DNA of 64,000 nucleotides from positions 31,855,564 to 31,919,563 of the forward strand of contig CAIIXF020000007.1 in the NCBI GenBank assembly GCA_903813345.2, in the 5' to 3' direction. How positions within the stretch are numbered: position 1 is the stretch's first letter; each line of letters begins with the position of its first letter. This document shows, in pieces, positions 18,301 to 64,000 of the stretch. The notes under the pieces are model-generated. The model saw nothing but the letters and a program-made list of their open reading frames with translations, was not told the origin of the DNA and searched no databases. The stretch is from Owenia fusiformis. Taxonomy: Eukaryota; Annelida; Polychaeta; Sabellida; Oweniidae. The position numbers were made by a program, and so were the translations under genes.

Positions 18301-21300
18301 CATAAATAGGTCAAATCAGGAGTAAGTGACCTGTTGAGAAAGTAATCATGGGAGATCATTGTACATAAACAAAAACATAGGATCTAATCAAAGATGGATG
18401 TGACCCATTCCCCTTCTAATTGCAAAAGTGCTAGAGTCACAATAAAACATTCTCAATGTCTGCAACAATGCTTGCAATCCTACACTGTATGCCTTGTACA
18501 ACTGAGAATCAATGCAGCAGCAAAAAAGACAAATTAGATTGCAAATATCATTTCTATAAATAGCATATGTTTGAGACTGAATTAGACTATAGAAATAACC
18601 TACTGCATTAACATGACAACAAATATCCCATTTTTGCAAGGATTTAAGTACATCTAATTATAGTTTCTTTCAATATAGATAATAGCATTTTATTAGTACT
18701 GATAACAATTATATATATGACATACTGGCAAAGTAGAATGCATTTGCACATAATTTAATGATCTGTTAAAGAGATCTGTTTGCCTCATGTGGCATTTCCC
18801 AATGAGTTCAACAAACCTAACTTGTATATATTGAAATATGGCATTTCCGAACTCACTTTCACCATCAGCATCCCCTGTTTTAGAGTAAGCACTAGCAAGG
18901 GCTCTGGCTGTCTCTGCTGTGGCAATGCTGTCTGCCTTGTTACTATAAATACAATGTATATAGAAATAGATGATACAACATATTACTATATCTAGTATAT
19001 GCATGTACATTCCCATGCATTTGTATTTTAGAGTAAGGGCTCTGGCTGTCTCTGCTGTGGCAATGCTGTCTGCCTTGTTACTATAAATACAATGTATATA
19101 GAAATAGATGATACAACATATTACTATATCTAGTATATGCATGTACATTCCCATGCATTTGTGTTTTAGAGTAAGGGCTCTGGCTGTCTGTGCTGTGGCA
19201 ATGCTGTCTGCCTTGTTACTATAAACACAATGTATATAGAAATATATGATACAACATATTACTAAATCTAGTATATGCATTTACATTCCCATGCATTTGT
19301 ATTTTAGAGTAAGGGCTCTGGCTGTCTGTGCTGTGGCAATGCTGTCTGACTTGTTACTATAAACACAATGTACATCACAAGTACAGTATACACATTGCAA
19401 TTAAACATGTATTTCTATGTTAGAGTAGTAATTAATAAAGGGCTCTACAATTTTTCTTCTCTGTCTAACCTTTACTTTAAGCATTATATAAATGTTGTTT
19501 AGTATGAAAGAATACATAAAACTGCATCCTGTTTTAGATATGGGCACTAGCAAGGACTCCATATCAGCAAGTGCATGACTTAATTTTAGTGCATCATCTG
19601 TATCCAAAACTTGCTTTCAAAAGGGGCATGATACCCAAAAGATAAAAGTATAGCCCCCCACCTATATAAAAGAACATTAAGTATACTGTTTATCTTTTTT
19701 GTTGGGTTTTATTATCATTAATTTGTGATATCAACTTTGATTTGTGAAGATAACTAAGGAATTGCAATAGGCCCAACCCCTAAACACCAGAGCAAGTTCC
19801 ATCTACATTAGGATGAAGAATCTCTTATCTTCATTCTAGGTTACATGTACAAATAAACTAGACTGTACACAAAAGTACATCATTGTATAATGACTACATA
19901 AATGCTCACTTTGCAGATGATATAGAATGAGCCTGCAAGAACATCTCAATGGCATGTTCATGGTCAGCATGTTTCCCTTTACTCTGTTCCACTTTGCCTA
20001 GAGATTGGTAGATTGGAATCAACTCTGGACAGTCATCTCCCTTCAGTTTAACAATCTCCAATGCTCTTTCAAAATACTCTGTCGCTGATGCATGCTTCTG
20101 TTGCTTGGCATACAATCTAAAAATACATACATATGCAATAATACAATCTCAATGTATCCCAATAGTCACTGGCTAGAAGATATTGCAAATGTAACAAAAT
20201 TGTGAAATATGTTACAGACACATGAGCTGCCAAATGTTGAATGTTATGCCAGTTGTAAAAAATCTTGGTTTTACAAAACTAAATGTAAATGAATGTCACT
20301 GTTTCTTGGTGGTAATATAATGTTGGCATTTCATTATTTATACAAAGAAGGACATGGAAATTGCAATGTTTAAGTTAGAAAATGAAAACCAAAGAATGAT
20401 AATGTACATTTATAATTATGTTTTATTATCAAAATAATAAAATGACTGCATACCTTGCTACAGCCATGAATATCTTGGTATCATCATCATCTATCTCACT
20501 GTCCTTCACACAAGACAACTTGCTGCGCTTATTTGCCACCTGTTCAGCTTTGGTCAAGGCAGCTTCAGCCTCAGGGTATCTGATGAGGTTAAGGTATGTA
20601 ACCCACCATCATTGATGCCATCTTTTATAGAAAACCATGACTGTGCCTAATGGGCATAGGACTGTGCTCAAAAATTAATTCTCAAGATGGCTGCTAAATT
20701 CAAAATTGCCACCTTTTTCAGAAGGAATATACAAGTTAACATATGTGGTCAACATTTTAGAGGTGGATAGGCGACAACCTCTACTTGAGTAGGAATTTCT
20801 AATATGCTGTCATGTAACATCATAGGTGTAGATTGTGCTGTGAGACAATACAACTACACTACTGACTACTTATTTATGAAATGATAAAAATGACGAGTCA
20901 TTTGATAAAATAGTACTATGTTGTTTTGTGGGATTCGCAACTCAAGAGAGTTGCTGTTTTTCTGGTTGTCTAAAATGGTTTCATTTAAGTTTAGCTTTAG
21001 GGAAAGAAAGGAAGACATCAGATTCAAGTCAAATATGGACAACAATGTAATAAATGTATTGTTATATACAGTTGAGCATAAATAAAGGGATACTTCTGCA
21101 ACATTGTGAGTGCACGCCCTAGGATAAAATGAATGTTCATAAGTAGTTCCATAATGGAGGCCTTCTCTGACTCAGATGAAGACGTAGCAATCCCCGACAT
21201 CATTATAGCCTTTGCAGTGTCTGCATGCTCTTTGGACTGGGGGCCATAACCTGACACACAAGTACAACAAAGTCACTTTTATCACTACACTGTAGGATAC

Positions 21301-36063: not shown

Positions 36064-39000
36064 ATGTCGAGAGAAGGTGAGTCGGCATTTGTTTTTTCAG
36101 CAATTTATTGTGTAAATATGCTTGGGTTTGAGACTCTTGACTTGTCAGCGAGGTAATGTATTATGCACTCTCTAGTGGGGTCGAGTAGACTGTGACCATA
36201 TAGTCGTTTATTCGGACTAACAAGTTACATGTACATTACTCGAGTCTCTAGCCAATACAGTGGCCTTAGAAGAAGGTAACATGTACAAAGTACATCCATG
36301 ACTGGGATACAATACGAATACATGTACAGTTGGGGACAAAAATAAATGACAGGTCGATTTTCGATCACCATTTCCTAATTATGGTGGTCTGAAAGCCCAT
36401 AATTTCCAATATTGTCTAGATATATATCCCTTAAAATTTGTATATTTTACATTTTGTATAATCTCATCCACTGATGTACAGTTGGGGACAAAAATAAATG
36501 ACAGGTCGATTTTCGATCACCATTTCCTAATTATGGTGGTCTGAAAGCCCATAATTTCCAATATTGTCTAGATATATATCCCTTAAAATTTGTATATTTT
36601 ACATTTTGTATAATCTCATCCACTGATGTACAGTTGGGGACAAAAATAAATGACAGGTCGATTTTCGATCACCATTTCCTAATTATGGTGGTCTGAAAGC
36701 CCATAATTTCCAATATTGTCTAGATATATATCCCTTAAAATTTGTATATTTTACATTTTGTATAATCTCATCCACTGATGTACAGTTGGGGACAAAAATA
36801 AATGACAGGTCGATTTTCGATCACCATTTCCTAATTATGGTGGTCTGAAAGCCCATAATTTCCAATATTGTCTAGATATATATCCCTTAAAATTTGTATA
36901 TTTTACATTTTGTATAATCTCATCCACTGATGTACAGTTGGGGACAAAAATAAATGACAGGTCGATTTTCGATCACCATTTCCTAATTATGGTGGTCTGA
37001 AAGCCCATAATTTCCAATATTGTCTAGATATATATATCCCTTAAAATTTGTATATTTTACATTTTGTATAATCTCATCCACTGATGTACAGTTGGGGACA
37101 AAAATAAATGACAGGTCGATTTTCGATCACCATTTCCTAATTATGGTGGTCTGAAAGCCCATAATTTCCAATATTGTCTAGATATATATCCCTTAAAGAT
37201 ATGCTATACAGATATGTAGGTCAGTATTACATAATCGTGAAATGAATAAGTCTGAATATATCATTGGTCAGAAAACACTAAAACCTGCTTGAAACTGTAA
37301 AAGTTTATACACTCTATTCCACACTGTATAGAAATAAAATAACTTACACTATAAGTAACTGTGAGCCAATCATTGCATAGAAAAAACTTTATGCACTGTT
37401 TATAAGATTCACTGAGACAAGTGGGTCAATACTTCATGTACTTTATGTGCTCTCACACAATTACCTTCCCTTGCATAAAGTTGCTGTACAGTTATATGTA
37501 ACTGAATATTGTATATTCATCACAAACAACCTTAGCAAAATGATGGTTCGACGAAATGCACGGTTCGCTAAAACCAATAAATCAGGCAATCCAGGCCAAT
37601 TTGGAAAGAAACTAGATAGCGTGATAGCGAATGAGGATAGTAAGTGAAATATATTTTGCAAAGGTCAGCTTGTAAACTACTGGGTAACCCTAAATGATGA
37701 GAAATATGTACAAAATATGTTTTGCATGATTTATTCATATCCCAATGATTTAACTCTTCACTGCATCTAATAAGGTATATACTTAGGTGGTTCAAAAAGT
37801 TTTGCAGTTAAAGGAAAATAGGACTTTTACAATGAAACTTGGTACACATATGTGTTATACATTTATACATTATATGTTAAAAGAAAGAGGTGCGATTATT
37901 GGCAAATACCCCTATGGTCAAAATAAATAATTGTTAGGTGTAACATGAAGAATAGAATGTCATATAACTCTTTGGAAAATATTAAAATGCTCGGGCACAC
38001 ATAGGCTGAGATAGGGGCCATTTAGTTTAGTAAGGTTGTATTGCCTTACATGGGGCTGTGCTTCATTGACTTAACATGAGGATATCAGCAGATCCCAATA
38101 GAGGCCATTGGTTTCTATTGATTATCACACAAATACCAAAAATACACTATGACCTGAATCGATTGCAAACTTAATAATTTCACAATTTGGCACTAATGGT
38201 TTATCTCATCAAATGTGCAAATATGAAGTTTGCAATCGATTCAGGTCAGACTTAAAATTAAAAGATTGTACATTTTTTCATCATTTTTTCCCTACAAAAT
38301 GGCTATAGAAAAATGCTCCAAAAACAACTTTTACACTTATCAAAAATCATACAACTTTGTAAAACCAAAGAATATACTATTTTATTTCATTATGTAGTAA
38401 CATATTTGGATAAGATGTAGGGATGCGTAGGATGCAAATGGATTTTGACAGACACAAAAATACTTCCTGGTTTGGAATCATATGCCTCTACACTTCATGA
38501 TTGAATTATGACCCTAATAAGTGGCCTATACATCAAAACAGTGCTGAATATAGGTCAACAAGATACTAGTGTGCATATAAATGTAATAATTAAAGCAGAA
38601 TACTCATTTTGAAAAATCAGATGAATTATTTTTTTCTCATGGGGAGATCCCAATGGAGGGTGTATAAGGTCCTTTGGGACCTCAATTTTGATTGTTTCTT
38701 GAGAGATGGTTGCTAAGGTAACCAGAGTGGTGGGTACCATGTTCAACCCGAAATTACGTTTTTCCAAATAGTTTTCTTGCTTAAATAAACTCTTTGCAAA
38801 GTGGCAATTAGCAGGTGTAAGTGTCTTTGGGTGGCTATTTTTCTTCAAATTCTTCAATTTTTTGCCAGCTGTCAACACATTCTGGCAATGCTTTAATTTT
38901 AATAGAATTATTTTAATATTTTACTAACTGTATAATATGTAGTTTGCATTACTGTTGATAAATAAATAAATGATTGCACTGTTCAGTAAAGAAATATACC

Positions 39001-42000: not shown

Positions 42001-45000
42001 GTTGAATTGACTGGAGGTTAAAACAGAACTCTATTATCTTTGTTCAAAAAATATCTAAAAATGTAAAAAATTTTGTCATTCCTGTTTTGTCATTTCCTGT
42101 TAACTTCCATAGCACCTTAACTTCTTGCATGAAGCAAATTGCTTACTTCCAGTGCTGTCATTTACCAAATGTTTCAAATAAAATTGAATGACTCGAATAT
42201 GTAATTCAGAGTCGACTGGTGCTATTCTCCATTCATCCGATGACAACCCTATGGAGGACAAACATACAGGCTCGACTAGCGGGGTAGAGCCTAAGGATGA
42301 TGACAATGTTGCTATTGAAAATGATGTAGAACATGTTGAGGAGGTGGCACAAGATGCTGCTCTACAGGAGCCTATACACCTCGCCCAGAAACTTTTAAAG
42401 GTAAAACAAGTCATGATATAATGCTATAACTACTAAACACCTTAGTAATATTCGAGCAATGAAGAAAATGCATTTCAAGTGAAATTATGTTAGACAAGGG
42501 CACTTTTAGAAGAGGATACAAAGTCCAAAATCTACTAAATGAATAATATGAATTGAATATCTCACATATAAAAGGGATCAATAATATGGATAATGTTACT
42601 TGTGTTGTATCGAATCTGTTTGTGTCTCAATATCAACCACCCCCCCCCCCCCCTTCCTTCCCATCTATATATTTCATTAGAGATATGATCAGATCAGATA
42701 ACACAAGGACTAAATTCAAGACAAATCATTATTAACTGACTTTGGTAGGATGCTGCAACGAGTCAGTATGCCACTACATTGGAAGAAGATGCCGTGGGGA
42801 AGCTCATCAGTGCCTCAAAAGATGGCAGTAGAGAGGCTGATGATATACTGAGGGATTGTTTGGCTAAAGGAAGGGGTAAGTTAAGGTTTTCAATCGTTTT
42901 AAAGATTCTCGCAATCTTTATCCAATCAGCGTTTGCGAGTGTGTCGGCTCACGTATAAAAGGCGAATCCAACTCAAATCCATGCAGGGGTGTATGAGGTA
43001 CTCGAATAGGAAAGAGCTCGTGAAATCTGAATTTATATGCACATGGTCAATGTTTACACATGTTTGGAGTTATTGAAGAAAATGTGATATGGGTGTGGTT
43101 CCGAATTTGAAGTCATTGCTGGAAAAAAATGAGTTTAATACGTGAAATTATATCTATAAATACAGCACTGAAAATAACAGTACACATGAAGTGCATGTAT
43201 GATTGTGTTCAGAAATGTTTGAAACCCTTACGGAAAATTCTGTCTGCATTTTGTCACCATTGCTCTTTCTTCCCGCATTCTAGTGCTGTTTGAATGAATA
43301 TATTAATTAATGTATTTCTAACTAAAATATATCACATTTTTTATAAACCACAAACATTTAGATCATAAAAAAATTATTCAATACTTGAGTGAGCACGATA
43401 TGCAAGGGTTACTAAGTTGATACAGTAAATGACCACTGATATTGTGTTAGTCCTGCTAATACACAATACATTTGCTAACACCCCCCACCTTCATAGTGAA
43501 GTGACTAATTGGTTTATGTTTACGTTTTAATGTGTTTTGGGTTCCTTGTTACAGAAAGGGGGGCCAGTAAAGTAGACTAACATGTTTGCATGGCAAATTT
43601 TGATCGAATATGTGAGACACTTTAAGAGTTTCCGTATTGGTCATAATAATTCGGGCGCTTGAGGTATTGCAATAACATGTATATCTAGAACTTTTTTTGA
43701 TTTTTTTGACATACATATTCATAGTCTTAGGGTTACAGTCAAAACAGTAATGTTTGTGAGTACTTTGAATTTAAAAAATAAGCAATCAAATGACCATATT
43801 AAAACAGTTTATGTAAAAATAGTCAGATTTATATTTATCCTAACTTTTGTTAATTTCAGATAGTAATGTATAATGTGCAGCAAAGCTGTTGCCTTTTGTA
43901 ATTTAGGGAGTTTCAGCCATGTTAATTTTTCCGAAAATAACATTGCAGAGAAGTATCAAAATATAAGAGGAGGACACAGATATGATAGCTAAACTAGAAA
44001 ACAAACTAAAATATACAAAAGTTAGGATAAATATAAATGTTTCTATTTTTACATAAACTGTTTCAATATGATCATTTGATTGCTTATTTTTTAAATTCAA
44101 AGTACTCACAAACATTTCTGTTTTGACTATAGCGTTAAGGTTAGGGTTAAATTCATTTTTTTTGATTTTTGACACACAAGTTTATTGTGTTTATGGAATT
44201 CATTTTTTTTTGACACACACATTCATGGTCTTTTTGGGATGTTTTGACACAGTTTCATGGTCTTGATGGAATTCATTTTTTATTTTTTATTTGTATTGAT
44301 CAGATTGCCCAAGTTCTAAATATACCTCTGCAATAATAGCAGAATTGTCGAAGTTTAGTCTTCTGCAAGAGACAAATGTCTGTTCTTTTAGGTATCACTG
44401 ACACAAATATTGATGAGGTGAATTGGTATCTTACCACAAGCGAGAGTGACAAAGAAGACATTGAGCAATTTATGAGACACGTGTCTGTTTTTTAGGTATC
44501 ACTGACACCAATATTGATGAGGTGAAGTGGTGTCTTACCACAAGTGAGAGTGACAAAGCTGTTAGGAATGCCGCTAAGAAATTGTTCAAGAGCATATCAC
44601 CGTTCGGACAAACAGAAATATATGCACATGCATTCAAAGATTCCATAAAGAAAATACATGCCTCGAGATTTGAGAAGAAACTTCTCAACAGTATTGGTAA
44701 GACATGACCGTTATTTGAAAATTATTAGGTCTATATTTATAAAGATTTAACAGTTGTGAATGATCGAAGCGCCAGACCAGAATCATTAAATCACAAATGA
44801 AGATGCCACGACATGTAAAGTCCTGAACTGTAAACCCCCAGACATTAGGTCCGTCTCAAAAGTATTTCTTATTGAAACTTTCACAGAATATGGATACTAA
44901 ATACAGGGAGGTCCAAAAATGGGACACTCGTATTTCAAAAATAAATATTGACCTTCATGATGAAAACATGTCATATTATATACCAAGGAATTTACTTATC

Positions 45001-48000: not shown

Positions 48001-51000
48001 ACATATCCTCCAAAACATTGCTTACTTTCTTTTTATAGACATTGAATGGTATTTCTGGATAAGTGAATTAGTGTTTATCTGGGTAATCAATGGATTATAG
48101 TCACTCAAAGTTACTGAGCATCCAGTTTTGGCACTTCAATTGTGTTGGTGAAGTTACACATATTTCAGTCAAATTCATGCTGAGCACAACATTTTGGTTT
48201 CAATTTTATAATCTCTATACATGACCCTGGTGATGAAGAGTCAGAATCAGTCAAAAAAACTAAACCGGAAAACTGTGCTCATTGTGATAACTAAAAGTCA
48301 AGCAACTTTTTTTCTGATATTTCTTACATCAAATGCCAACCATGTTGTTTTTCCCCCTTTAAATTAAACTGGCGGGAAATTCAAAAATGTGAAAAAAATT
48401 AGTCCTTAAATATATTTCAAAAATATGATTTTCTTTTTTATTCTTCATGGGTCTTAAGTTATTTCTTCTTTGTATGTCACACATGTTGCCATTGGTGTTT
48501 TTTCTATGATAATGACTATTTTTGTCGTTGTTAAGATACTTATTCTGACTCTCAGCAGGGGGTTAATTATGCATCAAAACTCGTGAAAAAGTAAATATAC
48601 TTATCAAATATAACTAGGACAGTAATAAAATCATAGTTCACATTCATTTGACTGAGGGACCAAAAGGGTATATATCCAGACACATCCTTTGAACTTTTAA
48701 TATACCAAATTAAAAATAAGTAAATTCCCTATCCACTGGTATATAATATGACATGTTTTCATACAAAAATCAATATTTATTTTTGAAATAAAGCAATCGT
48801 CGATGATCATTTGTCAAAGGAATTGCCTGATCAAGAATGAAAATGTTGGATGAATACTCATTTTAGGCTTTCTCTCTCAAATATTAGAAATTATTTGACA
48901 TAGCACTATATTTTCCATGATTGTTTCATCTGTCTTACATAAGGTTGACCTACATGTAATCCCACATTGACACATATAGAGTCAGATTTTTGCAGCACTG
49001 GGATTTTTTAATAGCTCCCTCGTGTTTTGCTATGTATGACTGCCACAGAAAAGTCAATGGTACAGTGTTACTGATAAAAGATCATAGTCTACATTACATT
49101 GAAGACCTTTTTTGTGTTTTAGTGTCCCCAGACGTGGATGAAATACTGACTGAAGATGTATTCATATCAAAGGTTTACGATAAGTTAAAAGATATACATG
49201 TAGACTTGGAGACAAAGGTGGATGAAGATGATCCTCAGTCTGTGGCATTTGACCAAGCAAATCTTAGAACCAAGGTAGGAAGTTAACCCATGCTATCACA
49301 TTATGTATATCAACTAAATAATGTATCTATTAATCTGGAAGAGAGCTGGTCTCTCAGTATAGTCTTAAATAAAAAGGGATTCTCTGATGATTCTCTGTAC
49401 TGCTATTTTGTAACTGAATCGTGTTCTCCATTGGCCTCTGTCATAACTTCAAGTTAACTTCATTATCTATCACACATCTTCGACTTACAGGATGGTTTTA
49501 ACACAAAGTGTTGGAGCAACTGAAATATTGTGAATCAAGATGCTGTCGAAAAAGATTTGGTGTTTAATAATTGTATTTTACAGATTCTACAATACCCAAC
49601 CAAGACAGCTGGTGCAATGGTTGACTACACACTGGACACGGTATCAAAGCAAGGCTCTTACTGGCTCCGGTCAATGATCCCCACCAACCAGATTTACATG
49701 TTGACAGCCTTTCTCTTGTACAGCCTTATGACGTTCAAGGCCTTTATGTTCATCTTACCATTATTCACTTTAGCTGTTGGATTCACAGCTTTAGTGATAT
49801 GTTCACTACAAATGATGCACAGCAAGAAAAAACTGAAAGACGTTCAATCATGGACAAAGGTTCTTAAGAAGTTCAATGAATCATTGAGTGATGATGTTAC
49901 AGAAGCAGAATTCGCGTGGCATACCATGACGCCGTATTGGGTTTTCTTTCCGATGTTGATTGTTTCAGTAATGTCATTTTCTGTTGCCAGTAAGGTCTGG
50001 GTACCATGTTCTGAGATGTGTATTCTATCCATCGTGTTTAGTTTCTGGTGCTTCTTTGCTCTAAGTGAGACTTACGATATTATGTTAATCTTATCCATGG
50101 TCTTGAATTTCATCTCCACCCTCCCTATGTTCTTCCATGACTTCCCTCGGATACCAGTCCTCTACCATATTGTGAACGTATTCACTGGTAGCATCTTCTC
50201 CTTTGAGGTGATGAATGGGATACAACTCAACGTAGGGATACCGTCATTCATTTATGTCACGATCCCTATTGTTTTCCTACTTATAGCTATCCAGAAATCC
50301 TGGCAGGGAACATACAGGAAACTCATTCCACATTTGGTTTTCTTTTTCTGGTGGCAGCTGGCAGCTTTATTTTTCACATTTTCCACGTGGTCAGGCTTGG
50401 CTAGAGCATCTTTGGGTTACGTTATGCTGGTTGTACTTATGCCAGTTATAAGCATTGTGTTGCTATTAGGAGGTATGTATTACGCCGTTAAAGTTTTGAC
50501 TTTGACGGGAGTCCTTAAAATTGTTACAACTCTTGTAATGTTGGCTATTCCAGCGGCTTTAGGTTTATGGTCACAAGGGTTTTTCAAGATCAGGGGCCTA
50601 ACAATGGATTCAAAATCAAAAGCCGTGAAATTCCTCCTAGCCGGAGTTGCAATATTTTCCTTTGTGCCACTTATGTACGTCTATACCCCAGCTGAACGGC
50701 ATGTTCACATGGACCAGACAATCAAATGGCAAGATTATCGTAACTTGTGCAGCAGCAAGGCCTGGGAAAGATCAAATATGGCTGACATCCAGATCAAATG
50801 CCTACAATTTGTTGATAGTAAAGTAGAATGGACCGGAACTGTGAAACTCGTTAAGGTTGCAGCAATTTCCAACAATGTAGAGCACTTTTTCAACAGTTTA
50901 CCGTACACTTTGTCCCACTGGTTGAAATGCGTCTATGGAGAGGAATACCCCAAGTGCGACGCAGACACAATGGGTGCGACGATGTACGAATATTGCAAAG

Positions 51001-51386
51001 TCCGAGAGAACCAGACAAGTAATTGCCACGTTGAGAATCTCAATTATTACACATTTGAGATCTGGGTTACAATGCCTATCGAGAATAACATCACCCAAGA
51101 CATAATACTAGTCGCTGGTAATCAATATAGGGCGATAATAGAGACACTAAAGGAGGGCTCAACGATAGGATTCCGGGCGAGATTCCAGAAGGATGTGGGT
51201 GGGTTAAGGCCATATCTCTTGGTGAAACATATGGAGTGCCTTGACTGTATGGTTTCATTAAATGAAGCCAAACCCATCGTCGAGGAGGAGGTATCAATCT
51301 CGGAACAATTAAGAGATGGCGTGATATTCACTGCGAATTTCTTCACATGTCCTGTTCTTGAATACAAAATCAAAACAGATCAGTGA
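36064..51386 (+). CDS. WFS1: Wolframin (WFS1), ER multi-pass membrane protein
   Basis: Coding exons 42210-42400, 42749-42875, 44496-44696, 49123-49274 and 49584-51386 join without frame break (phases 1,0,1,1,0). First-exon choices are 36064-36076 (ATG, four codons, 828-residue product), 37540-37639 (857 residues), or an ATG at 42188 without the upstream junction. Exons 3-4 match the Sel1-like N-terminal region of human wolframin: DILRDCLAKGRGI, then SDKAVRNAAKKLF. The 1.8-kb last exon, as in human WFS1, carries multiple membrane segments (roughly residues 265-595) and the luminal tail: WQDYRNLCSSKAWERSNMA, WLKCVYGEEYPKC, and CLDCMVSL. Wolframin is an ER membrane protein affecting calcium balance and the unfolded protein response; loss causes Wolfram syndrome in people. 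AATAAA is at 51612. Only the extreme N terminus is uncertain. Confidence 0.9.
36324..37196. repeat. 152-bp satellite array, 5.7 copies, built from a transposon end
   Basis: Units begin 'gtacagttggggacaaaaat' at 36324, 36476, 36628, 36780, 36932 and 37086; one unit has an extra TA. Copies are nearly identical, so the array is young. The unit start is the terminal repeat of a Tc1/mariner-like MITE found at 39.5-39.84 kb. Confidence 0.95.
37536..37639 (+). CDS. Candidate alternative first coding exon of WFS1
   Basis: After a weak acceptor (ccttag), ATG at 37540 opens 33 codons starting MMVRRNARFAKTNKSGNPGQ. It ends at a strong donor (ata|gtaagt) in phase 1, the phase required by the WFS1 exon at 42210. 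The encoded stretch is basic and has no match I recognise. If the short exon at 36064 is spliced to it, the frame from that ATG closes at once (TGA), so the two would be alternative starts or a leader with a tiny upstream frame. Confidence 0.35.
38151..38247. repeat. Hairpin with 22-bp arms
   Basis: 'gacctgaatcgattgcaaac' at 38151 and its exact complement ending at 38247 flank a loop of about 53 bases. Surrounding sequence (37.8-38.9 kb) has no recognised gene. Confidence 0.7.
39020..39475. repeat. Repeat family B, copy 2 (inverted relative to copy 1)
   Basis: Reverse-complement match to 30590-31085. It abuts a copy of the 152-bp satellite unit at 39470, so the two repeats are joined here but not at copy 1. 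Confidence 0.7.
39470..39843. mobile_element. Tc1/mariner-like MITE with 152-bp satellite unit and duplicated 87-bp right end
   Basis: One satellite unit (39471-39666, starting mid-unit) is followed by two tandem 87-bp copies starting 'gtatggcctcttgtaaattc'. Each ends 'cctgtcatttatttatgtcc' then 'ccaactgta', the reverse complement of the satellite unit's start 'tacagttggggac'. The two segments are therefore the left and right halves of one TIR element. Confidence 0.8.
40024..40285. repeat. Palindromic MITE family A, copy 2
   Basis: Hairpin 40024-40167 plus about 110 bases match 23787-24040 closely in the same orientation, differing by a few substitutions and a 13-base insertion near 40200. 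Confidence 0.8.
41363..42120. mobile_element. 758-bp foldback element upstream of a WFS1 exon
   Basis: The left arm starts 'ttaaggtaccatggaagtta'; the right arm ends 'taacttccatagcaccttaa'. Arms of roughly 300 bases pair imperfectly ('caaagataacagagttctgg', 'gtcattctgacca', 'gtgacctttcc') around a centre near 41740. It ends about 90 bases before the WFS1 exon at 42210, so it occupies that intron's 3' end. Confidence 0.8.
43720..44155. repeat. Inverted repeat with about 145-bp arms in WFS1 intron
   Basis: 43725-43857 ('agggttacagtcaaaacagt' to 'tatttatcctaacttttgtt') pairs with 44010-44150 in reverse. The spacer is about 150 bases. It lies between coding exons 3 and 4 of WFS1. Confidence 0.75.
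44392..44495 (+). pseudogene. Partial tandem duplicate of the WFS1 exon beginning at 44496
   Basis: A 104-base unit ends where the real exon starts. Its first 62 bases, right after an acceptor-like 'ttcttttag', match the exon start with four differences and keep the reading frame (ITDTNIDEVNWYLTTSESDK). It then diverges and meets an in-frame TAG that overlaps the real acceptor. Use of the upstream acceptor would truncate wolframin. Confidence 0.85.
44925..48795. mobile_element. Composite of two inverted mariner 3' ends with transposase remnants
   Basis: Left arm 44925-45155 plus 47044-47260 and right arm about 47270-48795 are inverted copies of one mariner end, sharing 'atggacgctggttgacagac', 'ttttgcaagttttggaaaac' and terminal 'caatatttatttttgaaata'. 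In the right arm 47410-47590 encodes RSPNVCDFHVWGEL and SLKDRIVNSI, the 'PRSPDLTPCDFFLWGYLK' region near the last catalytic residue of DDE_3 transposases. Stops and frame breaks show it is inactive. It fills most of WFS1 intron 4. Confidence 0.7.
45156..47043. mobile_element. hAT-like element (CAGTGGCGTAGCC ends) nested in the mariner composite
   Basis: The left end CAGTGGCGTAGCCAGGATTT is a widely seen hAT-type terminus; the right end, read in reverse, is 'CATAGCCGTAGGCAGCGGGG', a diverged match. Both ends carry 'gaccgggggttc'. It splits mariner sequence that continues on each side: '...gaccttcaatat' before and 'gaatatgtccaccatttt' after, with 'aatat' duplicated. No transposase frame was recognised, so it is probably non-autonomous. 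Confidence 0.65.
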
Positions 51387-53609: not shown

Positions 53610-56600
53610 ATGGCTAAAGGGTGGACGTTGTTGGTCATCCTGGCTGCGACCATAGCAGTTTCATATTCTCAGCAAAATGGTAAGAATTTTAAATTAAGTT
53701 TTAGGAAATTTCATTCAGTATATTTTGGTTGCGGCATACGTCATCTTGAAGAAAGTGCGCCGAGATAAGATAAGCCAATATCGAATATCAATAAGGACAC
53801 GTAATATTGTTCTGAAAGTTGTTATAGAGAGAGTAGGGCTTATCTTCACTTCGAACGAGATCACCTTACCACGTTGACATTAGTCATTAAAATGATGACA
53901 AGCAAAATTCTAAACACCCGGAATAATCATTAGAATTTAAAATGCCCGCCAAAAATGATTTAACATAGAGGCTGAGTATAAAAACAAATGTGAGGAAGGG
54001 CATCGGCGTCATGACGAAAGTGGGGTGCGTTTGGGGCGAACGCACCCCCCTCTGAACCTGCCCAAAAATGTTTTTGATGAGATTCCTCAAAAAATACTAT
54101 TCTATAACAGAAAACAATTATTCATGGTCCTTAAAAACGCTCAGATTGCACCAAATAACGTCTTCACTGACAAAAAAAATTTCACGGGAAGTTTTCCCCC
54201 GGACCCCCAGATGCGCGGCCTTCTTCCACACCATCACTTGCCTAGCCATCTATATTTTCTGGAAAACGCAGGTCCCTTTTTTCAAATACTTCTGTTTTCT
54301 GTAGGCCTATGTAGGCCTCTATGTATGTTTTGGGTTTCAGATATCACGGTTTAAGATATCATGCAAAAACATTGACTTTTGCACGTTGGCGGCGTTTTGC
54401 CTTTTAATAGATGTCACATCTTAGTCGTGTATCCGTTAAGAAAAGATACCAGATTTCACCATAGCGATTTATTTTTAAACTTTTTCTTTAGAAATAAATA
54501 TTGCAGTTTTGTTAAATTTTCTCCCCCCCCCCCTCCGTTCATTTTTTCCTATCACAGGGCGTGGATATTTTTTAATAAATTGTACAAGATAGCTACATTA
54601 AGATAATTTATTCTTTATTTTTTGAAAGGGTTGACATTTTTATAGCACTTGAAGTGTTTAATTTTTTCAATGTCCGTCATTCACCCTGTTAATTTTTACA
54701 TCCATAGATAGAGCGATAATGTTTTAATTATTTCGTGAATTTACGACTGTGATATAATTCCTGAAGTTCAAGATGTAAATATCCCACTCCACTGAAGTTT
54801 GAACTGACTGCCGGTGTGTATATCATTTTACAATGAACGACAAAATAATCAGTTCACGTAAACGTTTTTTTTTTAAATTCTCGTAAACGAGTATTTTTGT
54901 TCGAAAATAGGGAGGTGTAATTTAATTTGGTAGTCTGTGAACGTTTTTTCGTATTTCCTATAACTGCCACTACGCTCATCTTGTGGAGCCTTTCATCCAA
55001 TTTTTCCAGAAATCATTTGAAAGAAATATGTTCCGAGAAGTCAACGTATAAGCCTACTTTTTGAATTGTAATGTATTTTCGCAAAAGAACATGTTAGCTG
55101 TAGATCTATCGGGCTTAACAATTTAAAAACGAATCCATCGCTTAAACAAAAAGTTGCATGTAGCAACACAGAAAAATGTTGAACCGAACAACAGAGAAAT
55201 TGAAAGTTTTATTAGGTAAGTATCCATGAACAAGCACAGGTTAATATTATAATCAATGATGCTAATGATTTTATGTGCAGGATATTGTGCTCTGAAATTG
55301 CTAAGAATGCACCGAATGGTGTTCAATTTTCGAAATTGTCTGTGTCACTGTGTGTGTAGTATCAATATCAATCTGATAAAATGTATAAACACCGATTTAG
55401 TTTTAATCGAAAAGAACTATTTAGATAAGTCTTTTAAAACGCTCAGATTGCACCAAATAACCTCTTCGAAAATAGATTCCGGGACCCCCCCCCCCCCCCA
55501 AGATGCGCGGCCTTCGGCCCCGTACGTATTTCCCGCGCCACCTATATTTTCTGGAAAACGCATCTTCCTTTTCAAATATGATCCGACGCCCCTCGGGCAA
55601 ATCTTCATTCCATTATTTCGCCGTGTTAGCCGGCATTTCCTATTCCTTGGTCTACATTTTTATACATAATATAAATTGCTATATTCATATCAATTCTATT
55701 GAAAGAAAACGGACGTTTTAATTCTTGCAAGACCTTGATAATACAGGGTTTAACAGACTACCTCTGCGCGCAGTGTAAAAAATAAGTGAAACCTATACTA
55801 ATTGTGCGAAATGAGCTGAAAATTAAATAAAGCGTATCCTGCCACGTAAAAACAGTCTTGCTTGATTGACTGTATAATTGCACGATCTTTTGCTAATTTT
55901 TAGAAATCAATGCAATGGGAACCAGGTTTATGTTGGTCTTCAATAGACAATACAGAGGCAGTCCACTTGGTTCTAATGATGTTATTGTCACGACCGAAGA
56001 AGCTGAAACAACAGTAAATCTGGATATTCCTGCTCTCAATATATCGATGTCACGCGTCATTTCTCCAGACGAGCCATTAGTCTACAAATGCCCAGGAACT
56101 ATTCGGTTGGAAAACAACGTGAAGGAAATGAAAGGTGTTCGGATCACATCCGATAAGCGTGTTAGCGTGTTTGGTTCAAACGCCGGATTGTCCGTCGATT
56201 CATTCTTGTCCCTTCCTATGACAGACCCAGAAGTACGCGAGGAGTACATTGTTGCTTCATACAGGGCCCTCCCCACCACCTTCGCCCAAGTAGCCGTGGT
56301 CGCTTTTATGAACAATACTCAAGTAACTATCGTTCGAAGAAACGAAGAACGCAATGGCTATGATTGGCCAAATGCTGTTAACTTTACCCTTAATGAGTTT
56401 GAATCGTACATGCAAGCTGTACAAGGCGGTGACATGACCGGGGCAATGGTTCTATCAGATAAGCCCGTGTCTGTCCTCTCTGGGGCATCGTGTGCCTTTG
56501 TACCATTAACTTCTCAATATTGTGACCATCTAGTAGAACAGATTCCCCCAGTTTCTACATGGGGAGGTACCTTCATGACAGCTCCTATTGCCACACGACT

Positions 56601-58271
56601 TCGAGGTGATGTATTCAGAATAATCTGCAGTCAGGACAATACCACTGTTTACAATCCACGTTTCGGCACCCGAGGCCCAACAGTGCAGAAAGGAGGGTAC
56701 ATCGAACTTAACATCGGATCCCGTTCAACCCTGTTTTTCAAATCTACAAAACCGTGCATGACGGTCCAGTACAACAAGGGTATAACCTCCGATAATTTGA
56801 GAAGCGGCACCGACCCATTCATGATGATCGTACCACCGCTGAAACAATACGCACCAAGGCACAAATTCCACACAATACGAAACAGACGGGGGCAAGATTT
56901 CAGCAACCATGTGAATGTCATCGCAAAGACTGAAGCGTCCACCGGGGTCAGTCTCAACGGTGAATTCCTCACTGAATGGACACCGATCCGTTACACTAAC
57001 TTTTCCTTTGCACAGGTGACTAATTTGAAATATGGCCAGTATGTGTTACAACATTGGTCCAATGATGTCTGGATATCCGCTAGCGTGTATGGTCACTTCG
57101 GTGTCGAAGGCTACGGCAACCCTACTGGTATGGGACTACGCAGAGGAGATGGTAGGTCACACCAAGCTCTAAGAAATAATGTCAGTTAATCGTAGCCTAA
57201 CTAAAAATGCTCCATGACAATTTTTCTTTATTGATTTTAGAAATACTAGTAACTAAACATGTCTGAATAAGTAATATCAGGAGCAAAGTAAGAAAGGGCA
57301 TTTGGCGGCAGAAATGCTTATGTCACATACGATGAATGAGTGTAGTCTAGCTACGACCTCCTGTGACCCCCCCACTTCTTGACTACACAAGTATGTTCAC
57401 ATATGGGATGTGTCTAGGAGGGGGCACAAAGGTTTGTTGCTGGACTAGAATGGGTGCTGGTGACGTCATTCTCAAACATATGCCAAAATGACTAATTTTG
57501 CCATATACCAAGAGACTAACGTAACCTAGGATATACTAAATATGTTATTGCTTTTCAGTTGAGCACCCACCTGTGCCTATATCAACTCCTGCCCCAACTC
57601 GATCAGTAGCAAGTAACTTCACAGAAATGTAAGTGGCTGATCTTATCGTTCATGTTCATCGTTCCAATCAGTTATAGTAATTTTTTCAATACTTTATTTT
57701 CAAAGTATTCGTTTTTTCAAACAGCTATGCATAGTTAGTTCTAGTCGTGATTGTTTTCCTTTTCATGACACGTTGGTAAATGTATTTTAATTTTGATACT
57801 AGATGTAAATGCCAAATAAGGATCGAGCCAAACATCACTGCTGGGGAGACATACCCAGGTGAGATTCTTGAAGAGCTAGAACCCGTCTACTACAACAACT
57901 CTGATGGAGAATGCATAGGGTGCCACGAGGTACTTCGAACATGCCCGCAGATCTGTGATCAGCGTGCCCGTGAATATTGGGGATGGGAAGGCCTTGCTAG
58001 GTTGGTCCCAGTAAACGGAACAAGTGGTAGCCGTCTACGACCTCGCGGCCAGGTACTCTGTCAAATCCACAATGGTCCTCTTAACCCACCAGGTACAAGG
58101 GTGCTCGCCTATTATGATCCTGGCAGTTGTGGCGCTCCTATGCACACAATCGCAAGCAGCACTTCTCTCTGCTGCGCTGAACAAGATATTCCGGAAATAG
58201 GATACGTCATAGTTTGGGACAGAGAATGTGATTCCGATGTGGAATTCCCACTGCCGACGGATGCAAGTTAG
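53610..58271 (+). CDS. Secreted IgGFc-binding-like protein with Cys-rich C-terminal domain, 618 residues
   Basis: Exons 53610-53679, 55904-57151, 57559-57628 and 57803-58271 join in frame (phases 1,1,2; total 1857 bases, stop TAG). Exon 1 is a signal peptide (MAKGWTLLVILAATIAVSYS). The 1.25-kb exon 2 matches the IgGFc-binding protein N-terminal domain: GTRFMLVFNRQY, PALNISMSRVISPDEP, KGVRITSDKRVSVFGSNAG, DSFLSLP, EEYIVASYR, and SDKPVSVLSGASCAFVP with DHLVEQIPP. Exon 3 is a short Pro/Thr linker. Exon 4 has eleven cysteines (CKC, CIGC, CPQIC, LCC) and the segment VLAYYDPGSCGAPMHT; I do not recognise this domain. FCGBP relatives are secreted mucus or immune-type proteins; here no von Willebrand D domain is present. 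No membrane segment or GPI signal was seen. Function is inferred as an extracellular binding protein. Confidence 0.85.
54000..55600. repeat. C-rich repeat related to the 11.6-kb satellite, two dispersed copies in intron 1
   Basis: 54020-54260 and 55430-55560 share 'acgctcagattgcaccaaat', 'gatgcgcggccttc' and 'tatattttctggaaaacgca'. The first opens with 'ggggcgaacgcacccccctc', like the satellite opener at 11640. The rest of the intron is AT-rich with no exon found. Confidence 0.6.
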
Positions 58272-59704
58272 ACAATCATATCACCAGCACACTACCTCGT
58301 GGAGAAACTAGTAGTTCAGACAATGGTTTTCATATAGTTTTAGTTCCCGAAGAGAGTATGTGACCCTGAATGCTCAATAAGATGACTACAGTATATATTG
58401 GAGTGCCTATAGACAATACATGGGCGTGGTTGATTTAGATTCAGCTCAATACTCATTTGAAACGAGAATCACGTTCAGATTCAGAGCTATTAATAAGCCC
58501 TATTACTTTTGAGAGCAATTTTCCAAAAAGTGTGTCAATTTCAGAATCAGTAATACCATCATACCATCCTTTTGCCATGCCCATTTCAAGTCAAAAAATC
58601 TAAAAAATCTTGTTTTTAATATAAAGATTTTTGTTCATTTTTTGTAATATACAAATTAACGTAAAACTTTATTGGATGAAGAAAAGTCCCTTGCCAAGTG
58701 GGTCAGTACCATGCAAGAGTTAAACTTGGTGAAAGACCAAATCCTACGCCTTCAAAAATCTCAATCATATGTATCTGGAATGTCGTCGTATGTTATAATA
58801 AATAGTGCAAAAAACTATTGTCTTTGTTAAGTTAAAGTCGACATGAATATGATACATGTAGAGATATACAAATTAGGAGTACACCCAAATGTTATCTTTG
58901 AGACATAGAAACATACTGGCAACCCCATGTCAAAAGAGGTACTTCAGTTTCAATCATACTTGAATGTGCTCTGCTATACAAAATACAGGTCGTTCAAAAA
59001 GTAAGCTAACTTTGTTCCAAACGTTGTCCATTGCTCGAATCTACAAAGAAAACATATTATGCAATATCTAACTATTCTGTAACCAAAAGGCTGATATATT
59101 TTGCAGAGAATTAGAAGTGGTTGTCAAAGTAACTTGAAACGGCACAACAGTGTAAATCATGAAGTCACATATACATACATAACCTCGCACACTTTGAAAG
59201 CCATATCAGAAATCCTTAATGTCAAACACCAATTATATATAAATATACAAGAATAACTATCATAGTGCCAATGTCAACATACAAGACGCCTTATTTGCAG
59301 ATCAGCGGGAATATGAAATACTCTTTGCATGAAGATTTGAGCACTAAAAATAACATGTTTTGAGCAACCTGTAAATACTTATCTCCAGACAAAAGATGAC
59401 TGCTTATGATAGATAATATATAATAAGGGACCATCCCATGACAGTGATCTAAATTTAACACAATTGTTCTTCGATATTATCTTTGGTATTGACATTAAAA
59501 TCAATTAACTAAAGTGCAATTTATAATCAAACACAAATGTTTTTATGTATATGTATTTTTCGAAGATGATATGTTTTGAGAATATCCCTAGAGGTTAGAA
59601 AGTCAAAGCAACACCACCCTAATGTCCGTATTTTAGAAGATACTGGCACAGTTTCTCAAATTCAATTGGACTTCCAATACATCCAGAGCCATACCAGCGG
59701 AGCA
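58272..59704. other. Spacer between the two IgGFc-like paralogues
   Basis: 1.4 kb of AT-rich sequence without a recognised exon. It should contain the 3' UTR of the upstream gene (an AATAAA occurs near 58797) and the promoter of the downstream one. Its short length supports tandem duplication of the pair. Confidence 0.5.
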
Positions 59705-62700
59705 ATGAAGACGTCCTTGGCGTTTCTATTCTTTATAGGGCTTGCTTTTGCAGGTAATTGTACTTTATATTATAAAACATTCGATATTAAAAAGATAATT
59801 AGCGCTACATAGGCCATGATAACCCAATTCATGTTGTTAATGTATTCAAGAATGCATCACATAAAATCTAAAATGCAAATAGGCCTACATGTAGGACTGT
59901 AAGTGTGTTCAAATCCAAATTGTATAAATATAAGAACACAATGTTAAGATTTTTCGGGAAGAACGAATTAAGTTGAAATATTGCGGGTATCGTAATTGAA
60001 TTAGAAGTAGCATATTAACTCTAATTCGATGTAACACAAAACATAGCTGATGCTTGCGTTTACAAATCTGCAAGACTAAAACATGTGAAAAACAATGTAA
60101 TCGGCTCGTTAATTCCCTGAATAATGTCCAAGGTATTACGAACACCCTTTCTGTCGATTCTAACAAAATTATTGATCTAACAAAGGTCAAAACAGACAAT
60201 AATTTTAATCAAAGAGGCTAGACTGGATGGAGACGAGTTGTAACAAGAATAAGTTTCGAAACGATTGTCACAATTTTGAAATCTCTTTTGCTCTCATCAC
60301 TCCAATTCCATGTCTTGCTATTTTCAAAGAACCAACAGTTCTTGTTCAATCAGAAAAAGATTTTATTTGTCATACAGAATTACCATTGATCTTCTCGATC
60401 TCAAATCTTGATAAATGGAGATTTAATTACAAATATATCTTCACGAACATCTTCATCTTCAACGCTTTTGTCAAAACGTCTTAAAAAGCTTTTACCACCA
60501 GGTTTTACCACTTGAGATGCTGAAGGATGTAGGAATTGTTTAAGAAATTGGCACTGAACTCACAATTTTTTCACTTTGCACCTTTTGAGGTGGATGGCAT
60601 TAATGAATGAGAAGTAGGGATCGTAACCAGTCATAGCTTTCTCCTGATGACCATTGTGAATGGATGTTGACCCTTTGAATTGCTTATGAACTTCTAATTC
60701 GAGATCTGATTTCGTCCATCCCACATCATTTGAGACATCTTTTATGAGTACTATCATCTACAACTATTTTTGATATTATGAGTATTGGCTATCAGTTTTC
60801 CAATCTTCACTTCAACATGCATTGAAATGACTTCAGTATGAATGAAAAGTCCCTTGGTCCTCTGGTCCCGGAGGTTGATATTCGATGTCGATTGGAGAGG
60901 GAAGAGGGGAAGGGGGGGGGGGTGTTAGACATTATTCGTTTTCACGTTAGAACATGGTTTTTGGGATATATAGCTCTGTTTTCCTCATGACAGGTTTAAT
61001 ATTAAGGCTTCTTTACAGTTTTTGGCCATGGTCCTTTGCCTTTATCATTCATTTTCAAATAATTGATCCACCTCCTTCAATATCTTAGTGTCATTACCGG
61101 GAAAACTCTGTCTGAAATCGGGTGCATAAAAATATACATTCGAATGCCTATTAAAACTATTAGAGAGAGAGTATGTAGTACAATATGTGCTACAAGATTT
61201 ATTTGAGTGTAGAAACTCTAAAAATTCCTGCTCAAAATCTGATGGACATTGTTCAACATGCATTAATCATTACTAGGTACACTCGATTCTTGTATTCAAA
61301 TGCATTTACATGAATGCATTTACATGCATGTACATGAATGCTTTATTTGTTATTTGCTTTATTAGACTTATATCTCGATGTACATTGGATGTTCAAGAGA
61401 CCAATAAACTTATTAATAACTTAAAACGTTGGTGGACATGACACGTGTACTACATGTGCAAGAATACATTTTTTGTTTAATTGGACAATGCATTTTCAAA
61501 AAATCCTTGTACAAATAGATTCGTGTCTCAGTTTTTTGAAATTTTGAATATAAATTGCCTATTTCAAAAAACAGAATTTGGGAACACCGATTCAATAAAA
61601 TATGTCCTGGTATGGTTCACGATGACTCAGCGAAAAACATCATTCGTGAAATAATACCTCTAAACACCAAAATGTTAAATCGGTAACAATGAACTCACCG
61701 AAATGCGGTTAGTGCGTGTAGGACAATGGATTGAAATATCAGCACAGAACCTTATCTTTAAATTATGTTTTATCTTGTACAATGACAAGTGTCTGTGTAA
61801 TTGTCTGCACTGACTGTTTTGTAAGATGGATACTCCCTTTAAATTACCCAGGCATGGGATGATGGATAAATAGAAATAAAAGTAACTAATAATTATTTAT
61901 TCTTTAAGCTTTCACAAGATCACGTTATTATTAGTGTTCGATCCTTCTGGAATTTTTTTGAAAACCATGTATATATTTTTTATTCAAACATAAACATCTC
62001 TCAAAAACATATGTCCTTCTAAATATGATTATCATTTGCTCTTTATATTAAAATGATACTATAGAAAATAGTGTGCAATAGGTATATAGCAGTCTCAGAA
62101 ATGTACCCAAAAGTATATCAACAGCATAGACAAACCAATGCAATCAATATTTTCCGACATTTCTTTGCATGGCCTTGTAGTCAAAACATAACGTTTTTTT
62201 CCCCACGCACAGTTTTTAATTCAGTTTTGCCTTTTTGATACTTTAACCCGTTACCTTTACTACACATATTCAATGTAACCTCATTTTCCGATGACAGTCT
62301 GCATCCTTACTACTATATTGTTTATCTCATTAGATATTTCTGGTGGAATGTTTTGACTTCTGTTAGGATGCTGGTCTAAAGTTGTTCTAGGTCTCTTAGC
62401 TTTGGTTTAGCATAAAAGTGGTCCTTCAAATAGCCCCAGAGAAAAAAGTATGGACCGTCAAAGCTGGTGAATAGGAAGCCCTCACAATGTCTTATAGCAT
62501 CTTATACAGAAAGGTCAGACGTTCAAGAAACAGCATTGGTTGGGATTCCACTGTAGCCAATTTGAGACAACTGTGTTTTCATTTGGATATCATTTGGGCT
62601 CAAGGCTGTCTGCGTAACTCTGGAAGGTTACTCCTGAATCATTTGCAGACAATTGACCCGATTCTCTGTGCTTGTTCTGCCATCGTCATTCTCAAACATC

Positions 62701-64000
62701 TTTCTCTGTGGCTATTTGAAGAAGTGTTTCAATGTTCATTCCATGCAAAACGACCTAGAACAACTTAAGGGCAATATATACTTTTGGGTTCATTTTTGAG
62801 ACACCCTGTATAACACTACAGCATGGAAATATTTGAACATAGGTTTCCTTAAAACACATATTTTCAATGTTAGATTTCTGAGGACTTATTTCAATTTTAA
62901 GTGAAAAAATTGTTTTGAAGAAAATTGTTTTCAATGTAATAAAAATTGTGATTGAAATGTATTTACCCTGTGCGCAAAGTGAGAAGCAGAGTCGAACGAA
63001 TGAATCCAAAGGGTATTTTGTATTATTAGAGATATCAGATATGAGATGCATTGGACTGTAGAAGGGGTGGAAACGAGAAGAGAAATTTTGTCAAGCCCGA
63101 CGGGAAATACAATTTACGAAAACAGCCATTTTTCAAATATAGTAGTGCTCGGTGTAAGATCTTGAATTGAAAATCCCTTAATTTACTATCGTTTGATGCT
63201 TGAAAGAGGGCCAAGTAAAGTTCCTTAAATTCCTTGTCATTAATATTGAATTCAGTTTTCCAAGTACAGTTTTGTTCATTCAGTTTTTTCTTCTGTTGAT
63301 TTGTCTTATTTCTCTAATCTCGTTTTTGTCAAAATCGGGGGGCGCTTAACCGCTATCTAAATCATGTCAGTAAGATTTTAGACTTGGTAGGTGCTTAGCA
63401 TGAATGTTGATCTAGTCAAATCGAACGCTTTCATGAAAAATAAATCAATAAAGCACGAAATAATAGAAGACAATCTCTCAGCAAAATCAAACATCTAGAG
63501 CTGGGTGGCCTAATTGTGACGTCACTTCAAGATAGAATCCATTCGGTGATAGCAAATCATCAATTCTAGCGTCATGATCATGTCACTAGCCGTTGATACC
63601 TGAAGTTGTACTGACTTAAAACAAATGTACTAAATGGCATATTCTTTACATTGCAGCCGAAGACCACAAGGGCACGCGCTTTATCGTGTCGTTCATGGCC
63701 CAGTTCCGTAACTCTGTAGCTGGTTTTAATGAACTTGTGATCACCGCATCTAGACAAACTACTGTACGTATCCAGGCACCTATTTCGAATCTCGATCAAC
63801 AATTTGTCCTGGACGCAGGAGAAGTCAGAAGAGTCCGATTGGATGGGAATATACGCATGCTGTTCAACAGAGCCGAACGAAAGGGCGTCTTGATCACTTC
63901 CAATTTTGAAGTCAGCGTATATTGCAATAATGCTGGAATTGCTGGTGAATCATTCTTGGCACTCCCGGTCTCTGATTTTAACGCCACTGTCCCACAAGAA
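59705..64000 (+). CDS. Second IgGFc-binding-like secreted protein, partial (window edge)
   Basis: Exon 1 (59705-59753) encodes the signal peptide MKTSLAFLFFIGLAFA and ends in phase 1. Exon 2 starts at 63657 after 'acattgcag', continues the frame (G+CC gives Ala) and is open to the window end for 114 codons. It follows the paralogue at 53.6 kb position by position: GTRFIVSFMAQFRNSV, FNELVITASRQTTVRI, KGVLITSNFEVSVYCNNAG and ESFLALPVSDF. The intron position and phase after the signal peptide are also the same. I place the start at the ATG at 59705, which opens the signal peptide; an upstream in-frame stretch exists but has no ATG. The 3.9-kb intron holds a retroelement tail and a mariner relic. 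The C-terminal domain is not in the window. Confidence 0.82.
60495..61065 (+). mobile_element. Second copy of the 8.1-kb retroelement's 3' tail
   Basis: 'ttaccacttgagatgctgaa', 'caccttttgaggtggat', 'tctgatgaccattgt'-like, 'cccacatcattt' and 'agacattatt...catggtttttgg' occur in the same order as at 8560-9080. Only the non-coding tail is present, as expected of a 5'-truncated insertion. A poly-G tract interrupts it near 60917. Confidence 0.7.
62095..62812 (-). mobile_element. Degenerate Tc1/mariner-superfamily (DDE_3) transposon fragment
   Basis: The left end 'gtctcagaaatgtacccaaa' and the right end (reverse) 'gtctcaaaaatgaacccaaa' are terminal repeats; the right side extends to 'acagggtgtctc' in reverse. 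On the minus strand near 62380-62470 the translation reads PYFFLWGYLKDHFYAKPKL, the conserved block just after the second catalytic Asp of DDE_3 transposases. Stops and length (about 0.7 kb) show it is dead. Confidence 0.7.

Follow-up and report, generated by a model that had tools for sequence, protein, structure and literature searches.

Tandem IgGFc-binding-domain genes in the annelid Owenia fusiformis, one with a probable cysteine-rich tail for which the libraries searched hold no family

Results

Two adjacent IgGFc-binding-type genes in O. fusiformis

We analysed a stretch of 64,000 nucleotides from the annelid Owenia fusiformis (assembly GCA_903813345.2, contig CAIIXF020000007.1, positions 31,855,564 to 31,919,563 of the forward strand), here called the window, and identified two adjacent genes of the IgGFc-binding type, gene 1 and gene 2, near its right end (Table 1). 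An earlier sequence-only reading had proposed a tandem pair in which each gene begins with a leader exon ending in phase 1, and both gene models bear this out. Four exons of gene 1, joined across GT..AG introns with phases 1/1/2, give a frame of 618 amino acids (aa) closed by a stop codon. The encoded protein, of about 66 kDa before glycosylation, consists of a hydrophobic leader, an IgGFc-binding domain encoded by a 1248-bp exon, a short linker (about 24 aa) and a tail of 155 aa. It contains 9 N-glycosylation sequons and 16 cysteines, five in the IgGFc domain and 11 in the tail. The hydropathy peak over 10 aa is 2.97 in the gene 1 leader and 2.75 in that of gene 2.

Splice sites were ranked with an approximate consensus matrix, and the percentiles are relative to the window. 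The four donors (three of gene 1 and one of gene 2) fall between the 98.5th and 98.9th percentiles among all GTs of the window. The gene 1 acceptors rank at the 84.3rd (exon 2), 93.5th (exon 3) and 55.1st (exon 4) percentiles. Intron 1 of gene 1 also carries a repeat of about 160 bases twice, at 54127-54288 and 55429-55578, the copies being 75% identical.

Table 1. Features of the two IgGFc-binding-type genes (window coordinates)
Feature	Position	Strand	Description
Gene 1 exon 1	53610..53679	+	Hydrophobic leader (putative signal peptide), ends in phase 1; donor 98.9th percentile
Gene 1 exon 2	55904..57151	+	Whole IgGFc-binding domain with internal repeat, predicted to be all-beta; phase 1 at both ends
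Gene 1 exon 3	57559..57628	+	Short linker DVEHPPVPISTPAPTRSVASNFTE, ends in phase 2; acceptor 93.5th, donor 98.5th percentile
Gene 1 exon 4	57803..58271	+	Unassigned 155-aa tail with 11 Cys, plus stop codon; weak acceptor
Gene 1 candidate polyadenylation signal, AATAAA	58797..58802	+	First after the stop codon
Gene 2 exon 1	59705..59753	+	49-base hydrophobic leader (putative signal peptide), ends in phase 1; donor 98.9th percentile
Gene 2 exon 2, cut by window end	63657..64000	+	First repeat of IgGFc-binding domain; acceptor 92.7th percentile

The long exon encodes an internally repeated IgGFc-binding domain

The Pfam family PF17517 (IPR035234) matched gene 1 at aa 122-420 with an expect value (E) of 1.8e-62 and 211.7 bits against a gathering cut-off of 25.6, which confirmed the earlier assignment of the long exon to the IgGFc-binding family. 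No vWD, C8 or TIL domain was found in gene 1, for which the Pfam search at E<=10 returned PF17517 only (gene 2 is cut). The PF17517 model has 297 positions, and the unit that is homologous between gene 1 and bacterial proteins (described below) is about 410 aa long, starting near aa 29. With a profile built from bacterial domains only, exon 2 scored 300.8 bits over positions 1-410 of 410.

We then built a profile from exon 2 and 22 bacterial domains (23 sequences, shorter and identical rows having been removed), compared it with itself, and found that positions 109-400 match positions 3-294, an offset of about 106 residues, with a probability of 98.5% and E=2.4e-15. Matches at the double offset were weak: 217-325 against 2-120 at 65%, and 3-95 against 218-294 at 41%. 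The bacterial rows alone again gave 98.5% at the first offset and only 42% and 31% at the double offset. None of five column-shuffled control profiles showed a self-match above a probability of 0.1%. An internal duplication in the IgGFc domain is thus well supported by profile comparison. The simplest reading is probably four units of about 105 aa, which rests on the weaker double-offset matches; PF17517 seems to cover about three of the four and to omit the first. The repeat was not met in the literature consulted for other points, in which no search was aimed at it.

An AlphaFold2 model of the domain, made from seven input sequences of which two were near-identical and one partial, was nearly all beta, with a predicted local distance difference test score (pLDDT) of 70.4 and a predicted template modelling score of 0.74. 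A fold search of the PDB with this model gave no credible match: the best had E 1.7e-3, and template modelling (TM) scores did not exceed 0.21 among the best 50 of 1016 matches. Among viral structure models (BFVD), three matched at E<=0.001. Only Q6XLX4, the protein FirrV-1-C4 of a Feldmannia brown-algal virus, was meaningful (E 4.6e-9, TM 0.52 and 0.43), the other two having TM scores of 0.13 or lower. FirrV-1-C4 is therefore predicted, from structure models, to have much of the IgGFc-domain fold. A relation of the domain to nitrite reductase was also considered and rejected: the phmmer match (E 0.043) was lost with a profile, which among PDB sequences returned only another chain at a chance-level E of 0.42.

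No convincing match to the cysteine-rich tail in the libraries searched

The sequence-only reading had described a C-terminal domain with 11 cysteines and a set of named motifs, and the translated exon 4 contains them all: CKC, CIGC, CPQIC, YDPGSCGAPMHT and LCC. The cysteines are spaced 1-33-2-6-3-34-22-13-0-17. The tail has a pI (isoelectric point) of 4.6 and three N-glycosylation sequons, at residues 473, 494 and 534.

We searched the tail against Pfam, NCBIfam, PHROGs, the PDB, IMG/VR, plasmids and phages, in all of which animals are poorly represented. The best hits were at chance level in Pfam (YbcO, E 0.49), in NCBIfam (a nif ferredoxin, E 0.037, 14.2 bits against a cut-off of 80.55), in PHROGs (PHROG 33475, E 0.084), and among plasmids and phages (an Ensifer stretch, E 0.08, and a rudivirus protein, E 0.09). 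The PDB gave nothing convincing, and none of four pattern matches in IMG/VR was confirmed. The tail was also not found in 77 frames of at least 200 aa from the bacterial loci that were collected for the IgGFc domain (L001-L027). Within these libraries the tail thus has no assigned family, and the earlier statement that it could not be placed in one holds in that scope. A relation to NTR/TIMP domains was considered owing to the CxC start, and no Pfam match supports it. An AlphaFold2 model of the tail made without an alignment had a pLDDT of 39.6 and was unusable, hence no fold search was made with it.

Exon 4 and its connection to gene 1

The GC (guanine plus cytosine) content of exon 4 is 0.51, compared with 0.30-0.41 in five adjacent non-coding stretches. 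Its 3-base periodicity was reached by 30 of 2000 simulated sequences. In the same test the counts were 0/2000 for exon 2, 3/2000 for exon 2 of gene 2 and 0/2000 for a wolframin exon elsewhere in the window, and they ranged from 486 to 1883 of 2000 for the five non-coding stretches. GC content and periodicity support exon 4 as coding. Codon-usage log-odds and frame length were of no help in this decision.

Several observations weigh against the inclusion of exon 4 in gene 1. Besides the low rank of its acceptor, a stronger acceptor lies at 57725 (score 2.71 vs -3.07 at 57803), and either acceptor keeps the phase of exon 3. A splice to 57725 would add only Ile-Tyr-Ala before a stop codon (codons read by eye). 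Gene 1 would then encode a secreted IgGFc protein of 465 aa with a short tail, and the cysteine-rich frame would be untranslated with it, belonging to an untranslated region, an isoform or a separate gene. The presence of an ATG at 57780, with which the exon 4 frame opens, fits this alternative. Comparable frame lengths and cysteine counts also occur by chance at modest rates: among 351 simulated open stretches 155 aa long, 15 had at least 11 cysteines, 163 codons were reached by 56 of 1000 simulated 1172-base sequences, and the length of the exon 4 frame was matched by 7 of 200 simulated 12-kb sequences at window composition. The frame had the best codon-usage score of the three forward frames, yet one reverse frame scored slightly higher.

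We consider this alternative unlikely. It does not account for the GC content and periodicity of exon 4, which are missing from the five adjacent non-coding stretches. Neither AATAAA nor ATTAAA occurs within 57150-57803, the interval from exon 2 to exon 4; the nearest polyadenylation signal downstream lies past the stop codon of exon 4. Moreover, the frame from 57780 has no hydrophobic leader (hydropathy peak 0.11), which would be odd for an 11-cysteine domain with N-glycosylation sequons.

Gene 2 and the tandem arrangement

The visible part of gene 2 encodes 131 aa, about 105 of which are domain residues. As the sequence-only reading had stated, the two proteins can be aligned over their visible overlap, with 40% identity over 103 of the 131 visible aa (E=2e-21 in a one-sequence comparison). 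Against the bacterial-only IgGFc profile, gene 2 scored 49.3 bits over positions 1-105 of 410. PF17517 had no match in the visible part, which on the four-unit reading corresponds to the first unit and would fall outside the Pfam model, as that model begins near the end of this unit.

When the window was searched in translation with both proteins, no third copy appeared (other matches E>=0.70), and the view of an expandable family rests on two copies, one of them cut by the window end. No similarity between the two genes was found at the DNA level in a blastn self-comparison of the window (E<=1e-5), suggesting that the duplication is probably not recent.

Bacterial proteins with the IgGFc domain

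Bacterial homologues of the IgGFc domain have been published (PMC7350206, PMC9354016). In our searches, one of 72,556 plasmid records, a Bernardetia plasmid, encodes a relative with 25.6% identity to the gene 1 domain (E=4e-13) and a family match of 220 bits. Among genome contigs, a single-protein query found no IgGFc-domain relative, and a query made from a two-sequence alignment gave 132 pattern matches, from which five bacterial loci were confirmed, including Ignavibacteria and Flavobacteriales. The bacterial relatives can be aligned across nearly the whole of exon 2, with identities of 25-31%. In IMG/VR, the single protein found no relative and the alignment scan gave 88 pattern matches, none of them confirmed; none was found in phages.

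Among 198 genomes from a single bacterial phylum, 45 had a match to the family (44 above the cut-off), as did 24 of 61 genomes from a single class. These two samples partly overlap, and none of 14 control genomes had a match. Some genomes carry many matches: 26 in G237, 23 in G210, 21 each in G213 and G231, and 15 in G001, the genome of locus L003.

The vWD domain is missing from all four bacterial IgGFc-domain proteins scanned. In the L006 protein, the IgGFc domain is followed by reelin-like, Ig-like and type IX secretion signal domains, the last of which suggests that this protein is exported. Ig-like domains follow in L001, and nothing further above the cut-off was found in L003 and L004. 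Since the domain occurs without vWD in bacteria, a gene 1 without vWD or TIL is not unusual. The sequence-only reading had set the lack of these modules against FCGBP; the absence is real in gene 1, and its special character is contradicted by the four bacterial proteins and by relatives from frogs and caecilians in which vWD has been lost (PMC11237159).

Conserved residues and the peptide isomerase relation

The sequence-only reading assigned the family correctly and overlooked its published relation to a peptidyl L/D-isomerase (PMC3195878). The enzyme of Bombina skin is described there as a 52-kDa glycoprotein related to the H domain of FCGBP, the two being closest in a central region with two conserved histidines and a Cys pair, and its kinetics fit a two-base mechanism. 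The IgGFc domain of gene 1 might likewise be a peptidyl-aminoacyl L/D-isomerase or related to such enzymes, inverting one residue of a secreted peptide through two-base proton transfer. Its central stretch does contain Cys220-Cys230 and His232, and peptide isomerase activities whose enzymes are unidentified are reported from Aplysia, rat and cow (PMC11277431).

We examined the corresponding positions in 52 bacterial domains (53 passing E<=1e-10 and 250 profile positions, minus one contained copy; the near-identical L004 and L005 were both counted). The Cys220-Cys230 pair was present in 28/52; Cys86 and Cys308 were found in none and Cys265 in 2/52. At position 218, where gene 1 has Ala, 29/52 bacterial domains have His and 6/52 Ala. 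His occupies position 232, near which the alignment is loose, in 23/52, and both positions in only 13/52. A loose motif count, tried as a check of the histidine alignment, gave 13 of 53 rows; it failed to single out these positions and was set aside.

The equation of 218 and 232 with the conserved histidines of the frog enzyme, and of Cys220-Cys230 with its Cys pair, is itself indirect, the alignment containing neither a frog nor a human sequence. If they are the two histidines, Ala218 makes a binding or structural form likelier than an enzyme for gene 1. Further points argue against the isomerase reading. For the activities of Aplysia, rat and cow, the view preferred in print is a site like that of serine proteases, such as the spider enzyme has; this speaks against IgGFc domains as their source. 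The Aplysia and rat enzymes are contrasted with the Bombina enzyme in their sensitivity to Cys alkylation (PMC11277431). In addition, one relative of the domain acts as a glue protein (PMC11237159). Taken together, an isomerase function for this domain appears distinctly unlikely.

Other features of the window

With its spliced genes, the window has the look of animal genomic DNA. Upstream of gene 1, a large wolframin exon lies at 49524-51386 (+), with matches to WC-rich (E=1.4e-29) and WCOB (E=8.1e-20); it is probably the last exon of its gene, as in wolframin genes. We also found a minisatellite at 36322-37197 (152-base unit, 5.8 copies, 99% matches) and repeats at 18897-19372 (138-base unit, 3.4 copies, 97% matches), which overlaps a 195-codon open frame on the - strand, and at 44369-44558 (104-base unit, 1.8 copies, 91% matches), which by eye resembles an exon duplication that includes a splice acceptor. 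A frame at 6391-6765 (+) weakly matched the Mos1 transposase helix-turn-helix (E 0.0044, under the cut-off) and is perhaps a mariner remnant.

Discussion

Proposed function of gene 1

We consider it somewhat probable that gene 1 encodes a secreted, disulfide-stabilised binding protein of mucus or of a surface. The product would be a secreted glycoprotein, as predicted from its leader and sequons. The IgGFc domain may serve as a binding and scaffold module in mucus, a surface secretion or body fluid, and the tail may give multivalency or anchor the protein. Because the cysteine counts are odd in both the domain (5) and the tail (11), at least one cysteine in each would bridge the two modules, link chains or stay free. 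This proposal draws on the gene model with its PF17517 match, the sequons and 16 cysteines, the leaders of both genes, the probably exported bacterial relative and the role of FCGBP as a mucus protein (PMC9354016). Against it stand the weak acceptor of the tail exon, with its stronger in-phase competitor at 57725, and the distance of the relatives from which the function would be transferred, the bacterial domains having 25-31% identity. The sequence-only reading had also proposed a family of mucus or recognition proteins; its assignments of the IgGFc family, the leader and the tandem pair hold, and the contrast with FCGBP in vWD and TIL has dropped out as a special feature.

Alternatively, the gene 1 product could be a structural component of an adhesive or glue, in which the beta-rich IgGFc domain would provide stiffness and the tail would cross-link through disulfides. 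A precedent is PRIT-Dg, a glue protein of the tomato frog with IgGFc domains and no vWD (PMC11237159). However, gene 1 encodes only one IgGFc domain, its linker measures about 24 aa, and it has no long disordered repeats. Oyster larval-stage proteins called "IgGFc-binding" offer little help: they are mostly zonadhesin-like, three of six carry vWD, EGF and trypsin inhibitor domains (PMC6337334), and their name may rest on vWD similarity. For the same domain content, we rejected an oyster tandem array with cysteine-rich tails as a precedent. We give a glue function a low probability, as low as that of an isomerase.

A more far-reaching proposal would make the tail the first example seen of an animal disulfide-rich domain not yet described, carried on an IgGFc domain of the isomerase superfamily, with gene 1 as a one-histidine binding form and gene 2, whose central region falls beyond the window end, perhaps as an active L/D-peptide isomerase. 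This combination is speculative and very improbable.

IgGFc domains occur widely and are poorly understood: among related proteins, one is a component of mucus, one a glue protein and one a peptide isomerase. A single-exon domain with a small cysteine-rich tail would be far more tractable than FCGBP with its 5405 residues. If confirmed, the internal repeat would define the domain limits to use in expression, and it suggests that the first unit is missing from the Pfam model. If invertebrate members were isomerases, they would be candidates for orphan activities such as that of Aplysia, though inhibitor data point elsewhere (PMC11277431).

Comparison with known systems

The combination of an IgGFc domain with this tail was not found in the open-licence literature, where our searches were mostly aimed elsewhere. 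The family, relatives without vWD (described from frogs and caecilians) and clustering, for which a vertebrate gene cluster of IgGFc-domain proteins is an example (PMC11237159), are already known, and one PF17517 gene is among the regulated genes of a mussel (PMC11817969). The architecture with the tail is therefore a variant, a novelty of modest extent.

With respect to PF17517, exon 2 is a full member of the family, although the Pfam model spans aa 122-420 only. The bacterial proteins share with gene 1 a domain homologous over its whole length, as the N-terminal part of long proteins, and differ from it in the cysteine-rich tail, which was not found in the 77 frames from their loci. In the Bombina isomerase, the domain is related and has a Cys pair and His in its central part, a relation taken from the literature (PMC3195878) and not from an alignment of our own; it has two conserved histidines, and gene 1 appears to keep one candidate, His232. 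In the PRIT glue proteins of frogs, the IgGFc domains lie on dedicated exons and were multiplied by exon duplication (PMC11237159), unlike gene 1 with its one IgGFc domain and tail. FCGBP is a secreted protein and resembles gene 1 in its N-terminal IgGFc (H) domain, which in FCGBP is described as having 450 aa and few cysteines (PMC9354016). In FCGBP, vWD-C8-TIL repeats follow this domain, whereas gene 1 carries a C-terminal module of another kind.

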